49,750 nucleotides of DNA, taken from the IMG/VR virus record IMGVR_UViG_3300030616_000003, positions 1 through 49,750 of that record. One strand, 5' to 3'. The notes under the pieces were generated by a model. That model ran no database searches. It had not been told where the DNA came from and worked only from the letters and a program-made list of their open reading frames with translations. The stretch's first letter is position 1, and every line of letters begins with the position of its first letter. This document shows positions 7,157-48,093 of the stretch, piece by piece. The translations under genes and the position numbers were made by a program. Origin of the DNA: a virus.

Positions 7157-7190
7157 ATTATATAAAAAAAGTGGTGCAAAGTCAACCATT
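7157..7190 (-). promoter_or_regulatory. Class II promoter/operator 1
   Basis: Minus strand: -35 TTGACT (7185-7180), 17-bp spacer, -10 TATAAT (7162-7157). An inverted repeat AGTGGT-9-ACCATT (plus strand 7170-7190) covers the -35 box. The same 6-9-6 layout recurs at 11261, 12131 and 15087. It drives the 58-aa membrane gene and probably the genes down to 0.8 kb. Confidence 0.85.
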
Positions 7191-7533: not shown

Positions 7534-7701
7534 CTATACCTCCTCGTCCCTTAAATCTATACCAGCAAAAATATATTTCCTTACGTCTGTCTTACCTACC
7601 CATTTTTGAAAATGACCCTCTAAACAATAAAGCCCTGTTTGTGTTCCTTTTTTAACCATTACAAACTTTTCACAACTACACCCTTTTTTAATACATTTCA
7701 T
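7534..7701 (-). CDS. Small zinc-binding-like protein (55 aa)
   Basis: I start it at ATG 7699-7701, which has GGAGG 9 bases upstream; a longer frame to 7761 would run far into the polymerase gene. Cysteines at residues 3, 8, 10 and 26 and a histidine at 29 suggest one metal site. It overlaps the end of the DNA polymerase gene by 14 bases. No family recognised. Its position suggests an accessory role in replication, which is inference. Confidence 0.7.
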   Translation of the reverse strand: MKCIKKGCSCEKFVMVKKGTQTGLYCLEGHFQKWVGKTDVRKYIFAGIDLRDEEV

Positions 7702-10348
7702 TAAAACCAACCTCCAAATATTTATTAATTTCTGAATTATCACAGTTAAACCCATTTTCAAATTCTTGCAAGCTTATTTTTTCCCCGTAGTTATAGCCTA
7801 TTTCCCCTTCAATACCGAAGGATAGTTCTGGCATTATTGGGTTTTTAGTCATTTCTGTTTTTATGACTCTTAGTGCATCAATTAGTTCTGACTTATGTAT
7901 ACTTGATACAATAGAGTCATGGACGGTAAACATTATTCTTGATTTACAAAACCTTTTTTCAAAAATATCATGTATCCGCATTAACGAAGTTGCGGTTATC
8001 TGGCTTGCAGTACCTTGAATAACTGTATTTGGTGCTTGTCTCCTTATTTGTGCTTCACTCCCAGACCATACAAACGGGAATCTTCTTTTATGCCCAAACC
8101 ATGTTTGAACATACCCGTTTTTAAGCGCAAATTCTTGCGTAGCATCTGACCATTTTTTAAATGTGCTAAACTTGTCATAGAAATTATCAATCCACTGCTT
8201 AGCCTGCCATACTTCACAATTTAACTCTTTTTTTGCAAGACTTCGCGCCCCACGACTGTATATAACTCCAAATGTAACCGCTTTTGATTTTTGGCGTAAA
8301 CTTTTAAAAATAGCTTTTAATATTTCTTCTCTAGTTGTACATGCTAGTATTTTTTTTCTAAATTGAGCCAATATACTATTATTTTCTACATGCTCTTTTA
8401 TATCTTCTAAGCCATTCATAGTATTATAAAATTCTAATTCTTGTTTAAAAATATTTTTTGCGTTCATAGAATGGAAATCAATACCTTTTCTAAATACGTC
8501 TAATATTGCGTTATCTTGTGCTATTATACCCGCCACTATAACTTCCAGCGTACAATAATCGAAGTCAACTAAAAAACAATCGTCGTCGGGTTCTATAAGA
8601 TTTTTTACTACAGACCCGTTTTTAAAATTTTGAAAATTAACCCCGGTGCTGGACATTCTTCCAGTGCTTACAGCGACATTAAAATTAGTTCTTAATCTTC
8701 TATCATAGTCTAGGTTCTTATCTATTGCCTTTAAAAATGCTACATCTGTAAACATTTTATAACTGTATAATTGTTCCCATAACGGATGCTTAACTCTGTA
8801 GGCTTCTACTGCATCCTTGCACCCTGATTTTTTAAATTTATTTTTTTCGTTTTTCTCTTTTTCATCTTCCCACAAAGGTATTAACTCATATCCTTCATTT
8901 TTGTTAAGTAAATCATAAAAAACATATTGAAGCTGGTTACTGCTTCGTGGATTAAAGTCGCCATACTCGGGGGCTGTTTTTGCTCCTGTAGCTTCTATAT
9001 ATTTTTCTGGGGTAAAACCTTCCTCATAAACCATTTTTATTAATTTATCTAGTTCTCTTTTTTGTTTTTCTTCCATTTTTCTTTTAACTTCTAACAGGTT
9101 ATTACCTATTTTTATACCCTTATGCTCTATTAATGTAAGTCGATTTGTTAATTCCATTAAGGTAGTAAAATATTCTCTAGTTTCTTCCTTATCCAGCAAA
9201 TTTGAGAATAAAATAAAACCACACCCAGTATAATATAAATCAAATGTTAAATATATGTTTAGCTTTTCACGCGGTATTAAACTATAAGAACTATCTTTAT
9301 TGGGTAAATACTTTTTTATATCTCCTTCCCAGTCGTGGGCATTAAAATAGTTTTTTGCCCATATTTTTAAGCTGTGTGTTCCCATTCTTTCGTCAAGGCA
9401 CATATGAGCCACCATAGTGTCAAAAAAGTTTTTAAGCCTTTTTAATTCTAGTGAAATATTCCCGGCTTCACATACAAAACGTAAATCAAATTTACCATTT
9501 TGAGTTATTAAGTAGTTATTTTCCAAAAATTCCATAATTACATTATGGCTTCTACTATCTACTATAACGTTCTCTTGAATTATATACATTTTTGCTTTAT
9601 CTATGTCTATTTTAGAACCATAAGCCCCTAGAACAAAAAGACCAATTAATAACGTGTCGTCGCCTTTTCTTAGCCCTGATGTTTCTATATCCAAAACTAC
9701 ATAATTATTTTTATGAGTTAACAAATTTAGTTTATCTATAGAATCTATAGAAGTATATTCTATATTCTCGATTGGTCTTATTATTTTATTTACATCTATG
9801 TTTTTATCGAATCTAATAGTATTATACAAATTAGCCAACTTGATAAAATCTAAGTTTAAGTCAACATAATTTGTATAATTAGCTATTACATTTTTTGGTG
9901 TAAGGGTATTTATGTTAAAGAATTTTTTACCCTCATGATAATAAATATAGCCTCTTAAATGCGAAAAGGCTTTATTTTTACCAGATAATAATTTGGTCGG
10001 TTCTTCACCCATACCTACAACGATTTTAGGTTTTAAAATATCTATCTCTTTCCTCAAAATATCTACACAAGCTTTAACAGCTTTTGTTTTAAGTTTTTTA
10101 TCTTCACTACTGCATTTACACAGATTTGTAATATAACATCTATCTTCTGGGATATTGTGCCGTTTAAGCATAGCATACAAAAGACGTTTATCAATATTAC
10201 TACTTTTTACTAGATTTTTTTCATATATATTCGGTTTATCTAACACAAATATAATATCTATATCCCTAGTTATTTTTTTTGGATTCTCGTAAAATACCGA
10301 CTTAAAATTATTTTTATAAGGACATTCTATACAATTGTCATAAGCCAT
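7688..10348 (-). CDS. Family A DNA polymerase fused to an N-terminal UDG-like domain
   Basis: An 886-residue replicative polymerase. Residues 1-180 resemble family 4-type uracil-DNA glycosylases: cysteines 6, 9, 79 and 94 match the Fe-S pattern, and PKIVVGMG is the usual core strand. The glycosylase motifs look degenerate (VLDKP where GExPG is expected; TLTP instead of HPS), so it is probably structural. Then come a 3'-5' exonuclease (DIETSG at 220-225, later NGKFDL) and palm motifs: A DFDYCTLEV, B with K...FGVIYSRG, C VHDS in place of the common VHDE. The start is the ATG at 10348 with AGAGGTG upstream, not the GTG three codons earlier. Confidence 0.93.
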   Translation of the reverse strand: MAYDNCIECPYKNNFKSVFYENPKKITRDIDIIFVLDKPNIYEKNLVKSSNIDKRLLYAMLKRHNIPEDRCYITNLCKCSSEDKKLKTKAVKACVDILRKEIDILKPKIVVGMGEEPTKLLSGKNKAFSHLRGYIYYHEGKKFFNINTLTPKNVIANYTNYVDLNLDFIKLANLYNTIRFDKNIDVNKIIRPIENIEYTSIDSIDKLNLLTHKNNYVVLDIETSGLRKGDDTLLIGLFVLGAYGSKIDIDKAKMYIIQENVIVDSRSHNVIMEFLENNYLITQNGKFDLRFVCEAGNISLELKRLKNFFDTMVAHMCLDERMGTHSLKIWAKNYFNAHDWEGDIKKYLPNKDSSYSLIPREKLNIYLTFDLYYTGCGFILFSNLLDKEETREYFTTLMELTNRLTLIEHKGIKIGNNLLEVKRKMEEKQKRELDKLIKMVYEEGFTPEKYIEATGAKTAPEYGDFNPRSSNQLQYVFYDLLNKNEGYELIPLWEDEKEKNEKNKFKKSGCKDAVEAYRVKHPLWEQLYSYKMFTDVAFLKAIDKNLDYDRRLRTNFNVAVSTGRMSSTGVNFQNFKNGSVVKNLIEPDDDCFLVDFDYCTLEVIVAGIIAQDNAILDVFRKGIDFHSMNAKNIFKQELEFYNTMNGLEDIKEHVENNSILAQFRKKILACTTREEILKAIFKSLRQKSKAVTFGVIYSRGARSLAKKELNCEVWQAKQWIDNFYDKFSTFKKWSDATQEFALKNGYVQTWFGHKRRFPFVWSGSEAQIRRQAPNTVIQGTASQITATSLMRIHDIFEKRFCKSRIMFTVHDSIVSSIHKSELIDALRVIKTEMTKNPIMPELSFGIEGEIGYNYGEKISLQEFENGFNCDNSEINKYLEVGFNEMY

Positions 10349-10365
10349 AATAAACACCTCTATTT

Positions 10366-10578: not shown

Positions 10579-11034
10579 TTATATTACTACTGCTTCTTCC
10601 TTCTTTGCTTCTTCGTCTGGTTCAATAAATTTGCCTATTACCATGAAATCACTTGCATTGTCTTTACGTAGCTTTGCGTCTACGTAAGTACCTACTAATT
10701 CCGCCACCATGTTTTTAATACCGTCTAGTGTTACATTTCCAGATTCATCGGCAGGCGATACGCCAGCATATTGAGATAATATTTTACATTTACTAGCTAC
10801 TATTGATTTACCTCTTGGGTTGGTATGTTCTAAAACAATATTCTCATATACTGTAAGCCCTTTGTTGTCTGTGCTGTTAGTTTCTTTCTCTTCTTCAATT
10901 TTTAGTTTTAAAGCAATCATTTGCTTCCCTGTGGTTGTTTTTTTTACTTTTGCGTCCTCTACAACTAATGTATGTACTGTTGCTGGGATACCGTCCTTTA
11001 CATCTGTTTCAAAATTGAATAAAAAATTTGACAT
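10579..11034 (-). CDS. Single-stranded DNA-binding protein (DUF669-like)
   Basis: A 151-residue protein with an OB-fold-like start (VHTLVVEDAKVKKTTTGKQM, IALKLKI) and an acidic C-terminal tail (EPDEEAKKEEAVVI), as in phage SSBs of the DUF669 type. It would coat single-stranded DNA during phage replication and recombination, together with the Sak4-like ATPase encoded upstream. The leader contains the tRNA-like RNA, so SSB expression comes from class II promoter 2. The ribosome binding site is AAAGAGGAAATT before the ATG. A strong terminator follows. Confidence 0.85.
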   Translation of the reverse strand: MSNFLFNFETDVKDGIPATVHTLVVEDAKVKKTTTGKQMIALKLKIEEEKETNSTDNKGLTVYENIVLEHTNPRGKSIVASKCKILSQYAGVSPADESGNVTLDGIKNMVAELVGTYVDAKLRKDNASDFMVIGKFIEPDEEAKKEEAVVI

Positions 11035-11097
11035 TTTAATTTCCTCTTTTCATTTTAATTTTTTTTTTTAATTTTTTTTTGTTTTGTTTTTGTTTAT

Positions 11098-11239
11098 GTA
11101 AGTTAGCTCCCGGAGTCGAACCGGGCAATTACCACTACCGCAACCATACGACCAATATAATAATTAACTAGTATTTATTATAAAGTACTTCGGGTCTTGA
11201 ACCCTAATAGTAGCTTGGCAAACCGTACAACTAACTTAC
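11098..11239 (-). ncRNA. 142-nt tRNA-like structured RNA in the SSB leader
   Basis: On the minus strand an 11-bp helix (GTAAGTTAGTT at 11239-11229 with AGCTAACTTAC at 11108-11098, one G-U) closes the element. The 3' strand abuts a canonical T-arm: CCCGG, loop TTCGACT, CCGGG (11125-11109). A second hairpin, GGG-TTCAAGA-CCC (11204-11192), lies inside a GTAC/GTAC helix; its loop could be read as a CAA anticodon loop. An 8-bp AT hairpin lies at 11182-11156. There is no encoded CCA, the D-arm is not recognisable, and the gap before the T-arm is 64 nt. Class II promoter 2 would start transcription at about 11240, at the foot of the closing helix. It may be a degenerate tRNA-Leu or a new leader RNA. 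Confidence 0.6.
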
Positions 11240-11246
11240 ATTTATT

Positions 11247-11280
11247 ATAATACACTAAATGTGGTGTAATGTCAACCACT
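11247..11280 (-). promoter_or_regulatory. Class II promoter/operator 2 (tRNA-like RNA and SSB)
   Basis: Minus strand: -35 TTGACA (11275-11270), 17-bp spacer, -10 TATTAT (11252-11247). The operator GTGGT-9-ACCAC covers the -35 box. Predicted initiation is within a base or two of the start of the 11-bp helix of the tRNA-like RNA. Confidence 0.85.
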
Positions 11281-11307: not shown

Positions 11308-12084
11308 CTATAGTGAATAGTATAATTTGTACATGTTAAATAGGGCGTCCTCTGATACTGTAGCCTTATTAATTTTAGATTCTATACCCCTCGCCTTTAC
11401 AAATGGGTATTTATCTGTTTGTTTAACAATAAAAGTCCTATCACCTTTATAATTTAATTCAATTAACCCCACTATATCAGGGTACGACGGTAATATTTTT
11501 CTTTGTCCTTCAGGAAGTGCCAGCCTATATTGTGGAGTACCTACTATACTACCGTCTAAGTCTCTTTTCTCGTGCCAGTCGGCTATTACTGTTGTTACTA
11601 AATTAACATCTAAGCTATAAAATAATTCGTATACAGCTTTCATTTGATTTAAGTTTTTACCATAATCCATAGGGTGGTAATACTGTGTAGCCTGTAGCAT
11701 CTCGGGGCTGATTTCTTTTGCATATTTACTAAATTTATTTAACCCGTGAGATTGCAACCTGTGTATAGAGTCTATTATTATTGTTTTATACACTTTGTTT
11801 TTTGCTATGTAATCATATATCGCGCTTAGTTGCGATATTGTAGATACATGTCTAAGCGTCAACACCGTAGGGTCTAAGTCGCGCACCTGTGCTTTTAATA
11901 TACTTGATGCCCCTTTTTCTGTATCTATATATAGAATAGGACAAATTTCCTTATATATATCGTTCTTTTTAAATTCCCCTTTTCGTGGCACTATCCCACA
12001 ACAAAAAGTAGATTTACCGCATCCTGATGTTCCTGCCACCATGATATTTAATTTTTTATTTGTGTTAATTTGACTTTCTAACAT
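11308..12084 (-). CDS. RecA-like ATPase (AAA_24 / Sak4 type)
   Basis: A 258-residue P-loop protein: Walker A GTSGCGKST near residues 18-26, a second conserved segment LYIDTEKGAS, and Walker B KTIIIDSIH near residue 100. Length and motif order match phage Sak4-like recombinases (AAA_24), which pair with SSB to anneal or exchange strands in phage recombination. The SSB gene lies directly downstream, though from its own promoter. The ATG has AAGGAGGATTTTTAA upstream. Transcription comes from class II promoter 3, 34 bp before the start. Confidence 0.85.
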   Translation of the reverse strand: MLESQINTNKKLNIMVAGTSGCGKSTFCCGIVPRKGEFKKNDIYKEICPILYIDTEKGASSILKAQVRDLDPTVLTLRHVSTISQLSAIYDYIAKNKVYKTIIIDSIHRLQSHGLNKFSKYAKEISPEMLQATQYYHPMDYGKNLNQMKAVYELFYSLDVNLVTTVIADWHEKRDLDGSIVGTPQYRLALPEGQRKILPSYPDIVGLIELNYKGDRTFIVKQTDKYPFVKARGIESKINKATVSEDALFNMYKLYYSL

Positions 12085-12117: not shown

Positions 12118-12151
12118 ATTATATAAAAAAAGTGGTGTAAAGTCAACCACT
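12118..12151 (-). promoter_or_regulatory. Class II promoter/operator 3 (Sak4-like ATPase)
   Basis: Minus strand: -35 TTGACT (12146-12141), 17-bp spacer, -10 TATAAT (12123-12118). The operator is the most symmetric of the four: AGTGGT (12131-12136), 9 bases, ACCACT (12146-12151). Confidence 0.88.
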
Positions 12152-15073: not shown

Positions 15074-15107
15074 AGTATATAAAAATATTGGTGAAATATC
15101 AACCACT
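15074..15107 (-). promoter_or_regulatory. Class II promoter/operator 4 (RuvC/helicase operon)
   Basis: Minus strand: -35 TTGATA (15102-15097), 17-bp spacer, -10 TATACT (15079-15074). The operator ATTGGT-9-ACCACT (15087-15107) is less symmetric than the other three, so binding may be weaker. An extra TTGGTG half-site lies further upstream. Confidence 0.8.
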
Positions 15108-15208: not shown

Positions 15209-16519
15209 TTACACAACTTTGTTAACTTTATATTTGTTACCTGTAGAAGTAATAATGTTATTTTCTTTAAGTTTTTCCATAATTCTTCTATATTGTGTAT
15301 TAGTTAAGTTGAATTCTTCTATTAAATCACTCTTTTTAAAGTCTTTACCTATATAATTTTTTAGATAATCTAAAACTTTTGACATAAAGTCATAATCATC
15401 TAAAAGTGTAGTAGTTGACATAGTGTTTTTAATTGTGCTTTCTTGTGTGTTTGAGGTGCTTTCTCGCATGTTATTAAAATTTACAAGCTTTAACTTTTCT
15501 GGTTCTTGCTCTTGCTCTTGCTCTTGCTCTTGCTCTTGCTCTTGCTCTTGCTCTTGCTCTTGCTCTTGCTCTTGCTCTTGCTCTTGCTCTTGTGCTTGTT
15601 CTGGTGCTTGTACTTGCTTGTATATGCTTGCTTCTTGCTTGTATGTACTTGTATCTTGCTTGATTGTGCTTGTATCTTGTATGTTTCTGCTTGTATATTG
15701 TATGTTTCTGCTTGTATTATTATTTTCTACTTGTACTTTTAAATCTTTAATCAAATCTTTTATATCTTCTTCCTCTGCTTCTTTAGCTGTCTTACTACCT
15801 TCCAAAAATGTACAAGATACGCCAATTATTTCTATAAGAAGCCCTATTATAATACAAATAGCTTGTACAAGTGTTAAGTCTGGAATATCTTCTATTAATA
15901 CATTTAATAATGGTGCTTGTTTTATAGAAGTAGGATTAAATCCTTTTACTGTGGTATACTTGTATTGGGTTAATTTTGTTAATTCTATTTTGCTATCTTC
16001 TATTTTATTATTAGCTTCTAATATATCTTTAGAAGCTTTTTCTATTCTTTTATCATATTCTTTTCTAATCTTTGACCTATCAGTTACCCACGATTTAGGT
16101 ACACCGTTTAAATCTTCTTCTTTTTGTTTCTCTAAAGTATCCAATATTTTAACAAGCCTATTTTTTTCGTTTATATTATCTTCTATAGTTTTTTGTTGTA
16201 ATTTATACTCTTGTGTTACTTCTTTCCCTGCTTCCCTGTTGTTTACTGCTGTATTAGCGGTAAATACATAACTAAAAAATATTGAAGCAAATATTAGTAT
16301 CAATGATAAAGTTCCAATTGCCCTGTTAGTAGGTTTTAACGCCCATTGGTAGGTAAAATGTATTTTACCCATTTCTAAAATAAAACCCATCAATACATAT
16401 ATAGCTATTTCAAATTTGCTCTGGTTCTGGGATACTTGAACCATGAACAAAATAGTAAAACATAGAGAAACAAAATAAGATACTACTATAAGACTTTTTA
16501 AAACCATATTTTTAAACAT
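15209..16519 (-). CDS. Polytopic membrane protein with coiled coil, EQ repeat and C-terminal winged helix
   Basis: A 436-residue protein unlike any family I recognise. Residues 1-85 hold three hydrophobic segments, 95-200 a long charged coiled coil, 215-245 another TM segment; then come short SRNIQ/KQDTST repeats and a run of 14 EQ dipeptides, and finally 65 residues that look like a winged helix (KSDLIEEFNLTNTQYRRIMEKL). I start it at ATG 16519, with GGAGG 8 bases upstream, not at the TTG five codons earlier. It could tether DNA or a replication complex to the membrane; this is inference from topology. Confidence 0.75.
   Translation of the reverse strand: MFKNMVLKSLIVVSYFVSLCFTILFMVQVSQNQSKFEIAIYVLMGFILEMGKIHFTYQWALKPTNRAIGTLSLILIFASIFFSYVFTANTAVNNREAGKEVTQEYKLQQKTIEDNINEKNRLVKILDTLEKQKEEDLNGVPKSWVTDRSKIRKEYDKRIEKASKDILEANNKIEDSKIELTKLTQYKYTTVKGFNPTSIKQAPLLNVLIEDIPDLTLVQAICIIIGLLIEIIGVSCTFLEGSKTAKEAEEEDIKDLIKDLKVQVENNNTSRNIQYTSRNIQDTSTIKQDTSTYKQEASIYKQVQAPEQAQEQEQEQEQEQEQEQEQEQEQEQEQEQEQEPEKLKLVNFNNMRESTSNTQESTIKNTMSTTTLLDDYDFMSKVLDYLKNYIGKDFKKSDLIEEFNLTNTQYRRIMEKLKENNIITSTGNKYKVNKVV
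15505..15588 (-). repeat. Hexanucleotide microsatellite (14 units) encoding (EQ)14
   Basis: Fourteen perfect CTTGCT units (plus strand), read in frame on the minus strand as alternating GAG and CAA codons. Imperfect CTTG-rich units extend it to about 15720. A change in unit number keeps the frame and alters only linker length. Confidence 0.95.
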
Positions 16520-16548
16520 TTGTAAAACCTCCAAATTTTATTATTTAA

Positions 16549-20480: not shown

Positions 20481-20508
20481 AGAAAAGCCCTAAAAATAGG
20501 GCTTTTCT
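20481..20508. terminator. Bidirectional terminator in region B
   Basis: 12-bp stem AGAAAAGCCCTA/TAGGGCTTTTCT (20481-20492 with 20497-20508). On the minus strand it runs into TTTTTGTTTTA; on the plus strand the inner GCCCTA/TAGGGC stem is followed by TTTTCT. It shields the replication promoter from transcripts crossing region B. Confidence 0.8.
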
Positions 20509-20659
20509 ACAGGAAATACTTTGAACTTCTACAGCTTACTTACTAGTTATAAGTAATTGATTTTATAGTATCACAATCTTTACTAATCCTTATGTATATT
20601 ATATAACAACCTTTGCAAATAATCAATCCAATTAATGTATTACAATATATTTTTAAGCA

Positions 20660-20668
20660 TTAGTTACA
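20660..20668 (-). repeat. 9-bp TTAGTTACA element, region B left flank
   Basis: Single exact copy of the 9-bp element, upstream of repeat B1. Further copies in region B are at 20724-20741 (two, reversed), 20889-20897 and 20964-20972. Confidence 0.75.
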
Positions 20669-20690
20669 AGTTACCTTATGTTACCTTTAA

Positions 20691-20716
20691 TTAGTGCAAG
20701 GTTAAAGCCAGTAATA
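20691..20716 (+). repeat. 26-bp repeat copy B1 (iteron-like)
   Basis: Begins with the invariant 12-mer TTAGTGCAAGGT (20691-20702), second half ending AGTAATA. It points inward to the AT-rich core. With the following 9-bp triplet it forms a 60-bp module that matches region A (691-632, inverted) at 53 of 60 positions. Confidence 0.85.
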
Positions 20717-20723
20717 TGCTCAA

Positions 20724-20750
20724 TGTAACTAATGTAACTAATATAACTAA
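20724..20750 (+). repeat. Triple tandem 9-bp element, region B
   Basis: TGTAACTAA, TGTAACTAA and the variant TATAACTAA, contiguous, 21 bp after the 12-mer of repeat B1. The inverted counterpart in region A is at 632-658 with the same 21-bp gap. Confidence 0.85.
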
Positions 20751-20882
20751 TATATACTATTACGTATATATATATATTATTATTATTATATTGTTATGTA
20801 TCACATATATATATATATATATATTATATAACAATAAAAAAGTTTACATAGTATTATATATATATGGTGTGTAAAAATATTA

Positions 20883-20972
20883 GGTAACTTAGTTACAAAA
20901 CCCCGTAAGTACTTATACTAGTAAGTTATACCTTGCACTAACTTGGGTATTTTTCAAGGTAACTTAGTTACA
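20883..20972. repeat. 15-bp direct repeats with palindromic core, region B right flank
   Basis: GGTAACTTAGTTACA occurs at 20883-20897 and 20958-20972. Each copy contains the palindrome GTAACTTAGTTAC. The two copies bracket repeat B2, so the right side of region B is itself symmetric. Confidence 0.8.
20916..20941 (-). repeat. 26-bp repeat copy B2 (iteron-like, inverted)
   Basis: On the minus strand it begins with TTAGTGCAAGGT (20941-20930); its second half is the most diverged of the five copies. It faces the AT-rich core (about 20750-20880) from the right, opposite B1. Confidence 0.8.
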
Positions 20973-21044
20973 CAATTAGTTAAAAGCAGTATTTAACTGG
21001 GTTTTAGTTAGGTACACTTAAAAATATTAAAAAATGGCAAAATA

Positions 21045-47175: not shown

Positions 47176-48093
47176 TTAATTTAAATCTATTAATTGATAT
47201 TCTTGTATTTCTTTCTCGGTTAACTTTCTGCTATATTCTATTATTTCAAAACGATAGTTATCATCTTTATACACATTTTTTAAATCATTTAACGGCTGAC
47301 ACTCTGGGGAAAAACCTCTAAATTCTGAGGAAAAACCCCTAAATTTATAAGTATATTTATATGTCTTAGCTTCCAAACAATCCATAATTTCATTTCTATA
47401 TTTTTCTATTAAATCCAATCTGCTTTTGTATTTAGTATATTCCTCCGTAAAATCTTTATCTCCTAAGCTAAGTATGTCATTCACATAAACATACTCAAAC
47501 CACCTAAGACTTGTATTTTTGTATTTATCCATAACGGCGCTTAATTCAGGCGTTCTTATATTGCTATTACAGATATTACATATTTTATTATCTAAGTCTT
47601 TAGATAATTTATCGCCAGCTATTATAATATTAGGGAAATCTTTCTCTTTATCTAATCTATCTTTACTTTTTTCAGAAACGTAAAAAGGGTTATGTAACAA
47701 CCATAAACGTCTATACTCGGTATGGCAATCACATTCACACGCTAAACTACAATCTATACAACTGCAATTTTTAACTTTTCTAGTTATATTTCTTACAGTT
47801 TTCCAGTATGTTTTAAAAGTTTTCCAATAATTATTAAATCTTTTAGTATCGTCTGTAGATATGTTAAGCATAAAACTATAGACCCCAGACCTATAAGAGC
47901 AATTTCTAACATCTATATATAATATTTCCTCTTTATCTAACTCATTAATAAATATCTCCTTTAACTTATCAGCATCTTCCTGTTTATAATTTGTAAAAAT
48001 TATTTTTGTACTCTTATATTTATACCCTTTCTTATTTATAACTTTGCCTACTTCTTTCTTAAAAAAAACTGCTAACTTATTTATATTTGACAT
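47176..48093 (-). CDS. Early cysteine-rich hypothetical protein (305 aa)
   Basis: A basic N-terminal domain (residues 1-105) is followed by a dense cluster CSCIDCSLACECDCH (about 110-124) and by CNICNSN (about 172-178), so it should bind two or more metal ions. The C-terminus contains the repeated segment KFRGFSSEFRGFSPEC. No nuclease motif. ATG with GGAGGGG 6 bases upstream and its own consensus promoter. Function unknown. Confidence 0.7.
   Translation of the reverse strand: MSNINKLAVFFKKEVGKVINKKGYKYKSTKIIFTNYKQEDADKLKEIFINELDKEEILYIDVRNCSYRSGVYSFMLNISTDDTKRFNNYWKTFKTYWKTVRNITRKVKNCSCIDCSLACECDCHTEYRRLWLLHNPFYVSEKSKDRLDKEKDFPNIIIAGDKLSKDLDNKICNICNSNIRTPELSAVMDKYKNTSLRWFEYVYVNDILSLGDKDFTEEYTKYKSRLDLIEKYRNEIMDCLEAKTYKYTYKFRGFSSEFRGFSPECQPLNDLKNVYKDDNYRFEIIEYSRKLTEKEIQEYQLIDLN

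Follow-up and report, generated by a model that had tools for sequence, protein, structure and literature searches.

Genomic setting of the RNA

We analysed a 49,750-nt stretch of DNA (positions 1 to 49,750 of the IMG/VR record IMGVR_UViG_3300030616_000003; hereafter the window), which derives from a siphovirus-like phage of bacteria and has a GC content of ~29%. Its terminase is 36-38% identical to the terminases of Weizmannia phage Youna2 and Bacillus phage BSP7, and the nearest terminases in IMG/VR are 50-61% identical to it. The locus described here lies on the minus strand, to which all of its feature coordinates refer, and comprises, in the direction of transcription, a gene for a Sak4-like ATPase (11308..12084; phrog_124, 1.2e-19; AAA_24) with its own promoter (12146-12118), a second promoter, a 146-nt tRNA-like RNA domain (11096..11241), an A-rich linker (11035..11095), and a gene for an SSB-like protein of 151 aa (10579..11034). 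Elsewhere, the window encodes a family A DNA polymerase with a uracil-DNA-glycosylase-like domain fused to its N terminus (7688-10357), a protein with a weak match to DarA_C (defence against restriction; 47176-48093; 1.3e-05, just under the Pfam cut-off), and a protein with a long EQ-repeat run, which the opposite strand mirrors as an SC-repeat ORF (15209-16534). A non-coding region in which GTAACTTAGTTACC-like inverted repeats recur, together with AT runs (20500-21030), is possibly a replication origin.

The promoter upstream of the RNA domain (TTGACA-17-TATTAT, 11247..11275) is of the phage type, and from its spacing transcription is expected to start at ~11241-11239, which would be the first base of the helix that closes the domain. 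Its -35 element is covered by an operator-like box (GTGGTTGACATTACACCAC, 11261..11279) that recurs at 12146, at 7185, and in degenerate form at 15102. The shared sequence, GTGGTTGACwTTrCACCAC, precedes other phage genes (promoters at 12118-12146, 7157-7185, and, degenerate, 15074-15102) and is probably a phage operator that serves as a repressor or activator site. A preliminary description of this DNA had placed a promoter with an operator at the base of the helix, and both the promoter elements and the recurrence of the box bear this out. At the other promoters of the family the Shine-Dalgarno sequence follows ~18-27 nt past the -10 box; an RNA domain and a 61-nt linker are found only at the SSB-like gene. 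We found no terminator between the RNA and this gene.

The linker contains three UUAAA motifs and the Shine-Dalgarno sequence AGAGGA (~11047-11042), and it has no predicted structure. No other stretch of equal length on the strand is richer in A: it has 47 A in 61 nt, a count that only 2 of 49,689 such stretches reach. The Shine-Dalgarno sequence lies 50 nt downstream of the RNA domain and is not paired with it in the predicted leader fold.

The SSB-like protein has no Pfam match and no confident PHROG match, and a search at a loose limit returned two matches, phrog_2300 (0.027) and the SSB family phrog_378 (0.059). It is likely an SSB, because the protein at the same position after Sak4 in the relative G017 matches both PHROG families (1.7e-10 for the SSB family) as well as DUF669, and because the gene order is the same. 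The predicted structure of the window protein has a pLDDT of 51, with fold matches that are not significant.

Predicted fold of the 146-nt RNA

The domain is closed by an acceptor-like helix of 13 bp, whose 5' strand (AUGUAAGUUAGUU, 11229..11241) pairs with a 3' strand (AGCUAACUUACAU, 11096..11108) that stands immediately 3' of a T arm (CCCGG-UUCGACU-CCGGG, 11109..11125). The helix includes two perfect 11-nt arms (11231-11241 and 11096-11106), extended by one U-G and one U-A pair, and it has a mean pair probability of ~0.95; the T arm has one of 0.98. The abutting helix and T arm had been noted before as an 11-bp helix in an RNA of 142 nt, and the two additional pairs bring the length to 146 nt. 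A T arm with a TTCRANN loop and an adjacent acceptor helix are thus present as in a tRNA, and the RNA lacks CCA, as had also been observed.

Between the closing helix and the inner part of the RNA lies a D-like linker of 14 nt (GUACGGUUUGCCAA, 11215..11228) with a GG at 11224-11223 that may contact the T loop; in an alternative predicted fold this linker is partly paired. In place of an anticodon stem there is a predicted AU- and GU-rich inner helix (GCUACU, 11209..11214, with GGUAGU, 11134..11139) that encloses two hairpins. This helix is uncertain, with a pair probability of ~0.6 and a competing register within 0.1 kcal/mol. The first hairpin, GGG-UUCAAGA-CCC (11192..11204), has a second T-loop-like sequence, and the second is an AU hairpin (UAUAAUAA/UUAUUAUA, 11156..11182) with a pair probability of 0.90. 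Pair probabilities of the closing helix, the T arm, and both hairpins all lie in the range 0.90-0.98. The AU hairpin in the insertion was thereby recovered as described, and the second TTC-loop hairpin, said to lie inside a separate helix, was recovered in part: its sequence can pair as proposed, but the fold program favours 5 bp with a CAA loop, and the enclosing helix is the uncertain one.

The predicted fold of the 146-nt RNA is more stable than that of 198 of 200 shuffled sequences (z = -2.76). A descriptor of a T arm abutting a helix scored 13.7 here, and none of 400 dinucleotide shuffles of the window reached this value (best, 9.2). In ~2.1 Mb of other phage DNA, the top non-tRNA scores for the same descriptor were 10.0 and 9.7, and the match scoring 10.0 belongs to another tRNA-like RNA, one that lies in a tRNA array. 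The domain has a GC content of 39%, compared with 21% and 11.5% in its flanks. On the strength of these models, we consider the tRNA-like, promoter-proximal RNA domain to be real.

The RNA differs from tRNAs and catalogued RNAs

ARAGORN found zero tRNAs or tmRNAs, and Rfam searches returned no match to tRNA (RF00005) or tRNA-Sec even at E<=10, and none to tmRNA or a riboswitch. A D arm and a 5-bp anticodon arm in a body of 70-95 nt are absent; the RNA is 146 nt long and has no D stem. These results support the earlier view that it is not a standard tRNA and does not correspond to any catalogued leader, and the confident tRNA call that was to speak against this view did not occur in ARAGORN or in Rfam at E<=10.

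In tmRNA, the tRNA-like domain likewise consists of an acceptor and a T arm with a GG linker, and another domain replaces the anticodon arm. We rejected tmRNA for the window RNA, which matches no tmRNA model, lacks CCA, and has no plausible tag frame (the frame through the insert ends in IINTS). The bacterial Y RNA YrlA also resembles the window RNA in its terminal helix and T arm, GG linker, and other domain replacing the anticodon arm (PMC8394870); it was rejected because the gene for its TROVE partner, Rsr, is absent from the window, a check limited to phage-encoded genes. An attP copy of a host tRNA was rejected as well: the T-arm/acceptor 21-mer occurs in 0 of 84,980 species genomes, and the window has no tyrosine integrase, the one integrase type that this check covered.

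Searches of viral contigs, of records of phages and plasmids, and of 42 whole phage records turned up no homologue of the 146-nt RNA. Queries with the SSB and polymerase in viral contigs and a search with a T-arm/acceptor pattern gave no homologue, and two-part and arm patterns in viral contigs returned chance matches or tRNAs only. Against phages and plasmids, blastn gave matches that were either short or rich in AT. Nor was a homologue found in 32 terminase relatives queried with the SSB and with DNA; the DNA matches checked there fall in coding DNA. Likewise, an RNA model (R1) run over ~1.95 Mb of phage loci and the 42 whole phage records found no homologue, nor did queries with the 21-mer and the terminase against species genomes, and a polymerase-based scan led to distant phages only.

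Structured SSB leaders in relatives

Two relatives, G029 and G007, encode a different SSB of the gp2.5 type (phrog_112, 6e-20 for G029; the G007 protein is 77% identical to that of G029). In both, the SSB gene is preceded by a promoter of its own and by a perfect hairpin (AUGUACC-AACGA-GGUACA), which begins 5 nt past the -10 box, an offset that is shared with the window RNA, as is the AUGUA start. The hairpin is followed by an A-rich linker and then by the Shine-Dalgarno sequence, in parallel with the leader design of the window. Among the loci examined, the hairpin sequence was found only at the SSB leader, and among the promoters listed for the two genomes few others have a compact hairpin near the start, the clearest being at L070:2335 in G029. 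The SSB leaders of G017 and G025 have no comparable hairpin at the promoter start. The sequences suggest that sealing of the SSB message at its 5' end recurs, in one lineage with two members, although the SSBs are of different families, and that the tRNA-like domain of the window stands where these relatives have a plain hairpin.

T4 RNAC has the closest architecture

Judged by sequence and predicted pairing, the RNA closest in architecture is T4 RNAC (species 1 stable RNA; NC_000866 70908-71046, L173:909-1047), a late RNA of 139 nt whose function was unknown as of 2022 (PMC9697503). Both RNAs are phage-made and ~140 nt long, with an acceptor-like helix directly on the T arm and a GG shortly past the acceptor's 5' strand; both lack D and anticodon arms, contain more than 100 nt of inserted structure, and are absent from Rfam. 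The window RNA thus has the acceptor-T-arm-GG core, the insert of >80 nt, and the total length of ~140-150 nt that characterise an RNAC-like RNA. They differ in that RNAC lies in a tRNA cluster, is expressed late, and carries two U-U mismatches in an acceptor of 7 positions as well as a different insert sequence, whereas the window RNA has a 13-bp helix and a promoter of its own and is continuous with the SSB-like gene. Sequence homology between the two was not found; model R1 scores RNAC at 16.3 bits, like ordinary tRNAs.

We compared RNAC from T4, EcS1, SonariX, and EnC15 (L173-L176). All counted acceptor and T-stem pairs form in these four sequences, the two U-U acceptor positions being left out of the count, and 30-53% of pairs form when the partners are slid as a control. 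Both helices show compensatory changes (A-U to G-C; G-C to U-A to A-U), and the GG past the acceptor is invariant across the four sequences. The comparison with the window RNA points to a testable acceptor and T-arm core for T4 RNAC. In SonariX, part of RNAC is annotated as tRNA-Met.

A further RNA of this shape, of 150 nt, lies in the tRNA array of a jumbo phage (L165:6574-6723, minus strand, IMGVR_UViG_3300033067_001661). It has an acceptor (GGGGACG/CGTCCCC), a T arm, and a large insert, and it is missed by both ARAGORN and Rfam.

Possible roles of the RNA

In the reading that we favour, at about an even chance, the 146-nt RNA acts in cis as a 5' leader of the SSB-like gene, sealing the message at its 5' end and either supporting SSB translation or feeding back on it. 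In its favour, the promoter is so placed that transcription should start at the base of the helix, and no terminator stands between the RNA and the gene. With the first base of the closing helix as the first base transcribed, the 5' end of the SSB mRNA would be held in a 13-bp helix stacked on the T arm in a tRNA-like core. Such an end may slow decay that depends on the 5' end (RppH, RNase J type). Together with the 61 nt of A-rich, unstructured RNA behind it, on which ribosomes would load, the compact fold would give a stable and well-translated SSB message. Bacterial mRNA is stabilised by 5'-terminal stem-loops (Emory 1992, as cited in PMC2777011), and tRNA-like elements upstream of a Shine-Dalgarno sequence raised translation 2- to 6.3-fold in vitro; the effect of the yjdF aptamer fell to near background when its GG pair was mutated (PMC9142559).

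The leader of T4 gene 32 offers a parallel. The gene 32 mRNA is the most stable T4 mRNA. A pseudoknot lies 67 nt ahead of its start, and the ribosome site is covered by an unstructured, A+U-rich stretch with UUAA(A) repeats, a stretch that gp32 binds to repress itself (PMC3014915). In both leaders the structure ends ~60-70 nt before the SSB start codon and gives way to an unstructured, A-rich UUAA(A) stretch over the ribosome site, although T4 uses a small pseudoknot and the window a tRNA-like fold, and the SSB identity of the window protein is weak. By analogy with gp32, SSB in excess may occupy the fold and extend from there over the A-rich UUAAA stretch, thereby shutting off its own translation.

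Control of SSB expression, one of the roles first suggested for the RNA, is the reading with the most comparative support, namely the leaders of G029 and G007 and the A-rich linker. Against it stand the weak SSB identity and the searches that found no homologue of the RNA. In addition, the hairpins of the relatives are simple and come from a single lineage, G025 is without one, and A-rich leaders containing UUAAA are common in G029. Sealing alone does not explain the tRNA-like fold either, because a plain hairpin would seal the 5' end.

The main rival, which is not mutually exclusive with the leader reading and which we regard as possible though on balance unlikely, is a stable, trans-acting RNA like T4 RNAC. 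The promoter transcript would be cut in the A-rich linker and trimmed to the sealed helix, and the product would mimic a tRNA, for instance as a ligand of an enzyme that handles tRNAs or of a host defence that cuts them. The size class and the architecture of acceptor, T arm, GG, and large insert, which the window RNA has in common with the stable late RNAC and with the jumbo phage RNA, argue for such a role, as would the sealing of both RNA ends in one helix. The window RNA, by contrast with these two members of tRNA clusters, is continuous with an mRNA and lacks tRNA genes in its neighbourhood, a terminator, and a CCA, and RNAC has no sequence homology to it. An origin as a degenerate phage tRNA on its way out, such as a tRNA-Leu(CAA) with an insertion, would account for the perfect T arm, for the 7-bp acceptor-like stretch (GUUAGUU/AGCUAAC), for the UUCAAGA that can be read as a CAA anticodon loop, and for the fact that the best matches of model R1, itself aside, are real tRNAs. 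We consider it very unlikely, given that no tRNA or tRNA-Sec match appeared at E<=10 and no D arm is present, and that the insert is too short for a group I intron. The proposal of a decaying tRNA-Leu(CAA) in the preliminary description therefore went unsupported, because decay would erode the closing helix and not extend it to 13 bp from the likely promoter start.

We also considered two further alternatives. Stacked T-arm and acceptor helices are recognised by RNase P, and T4 gene 32 mRNA, phage M3 RNA, and C4 RNA are RNase P substrates (PMC11143913), so that the fold might be a processing signal for RNase P (and RNase Z) that parts the SSB message from upstream RNA. Yet a start at the helix base would leave little upstream RNA to remove from the transcript. 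The closing helix also runs 6 bp beyond the length of a tRNA acceptor, which ties what would be the 5' leader to the 3' trailer. This pairing and the missing CCA should both hinder cutting, and we hold this reading to be highly improbable. Least probable of all is a ligand-sensing riboswitch of the yjdF type, in which the tRNA-like fold would switch SSB translation. Placement of a tRNA-like fold in the 5' leader, ahead of the Shine-Dalgarno sequence, is common to the 146-nt RNA, yjdF, and engineered tRNA leaders, yjdF being a tRNA-like leader that controls translation (PMC9142559), and the 146-nt RNA has two predicted inner folds of equal energy. It differs from yjdF in size and insert, no Rfam riboswitch, yjdF included, matches it, and neither the T loop nor any other part of the element pairs in the predicted fold with the Shine-Dalgarno sequence, 50 nt downstream.

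If the leader reading is true, the SSB message would be a naturally occurring phage mRNA with a tRNA-like fold sealing its 5' end, and it would unite in one example two known ideas, structured SSB leaders and translation-boosting tRNA-like leaders. A broader proposal, which we find doubtful, is that unrelated phage lineages (those of the window, RNAC, and the jumbo phage) carry acceptor/T-arm/GG RNAs of 140-150 nt, lacking D and anticodon arms, that engage the host tRNA machinery in the course of infection, the one in the window doubling as the 5' end of the SSB mRNA. The window RNA points to a kind of RNA that is overlooked by tRNA finders and Rfam.

We also observed a miniature tRNA-like element in another viral contig (L166:8331-8371, plus strand, IMGVR_UViG_3300030433_001973), where an acceptor-like stem, a 9-nt linker (AAUGGUUUU), and a T arm of 7 bp lie in the leader of an ORF at 8419.
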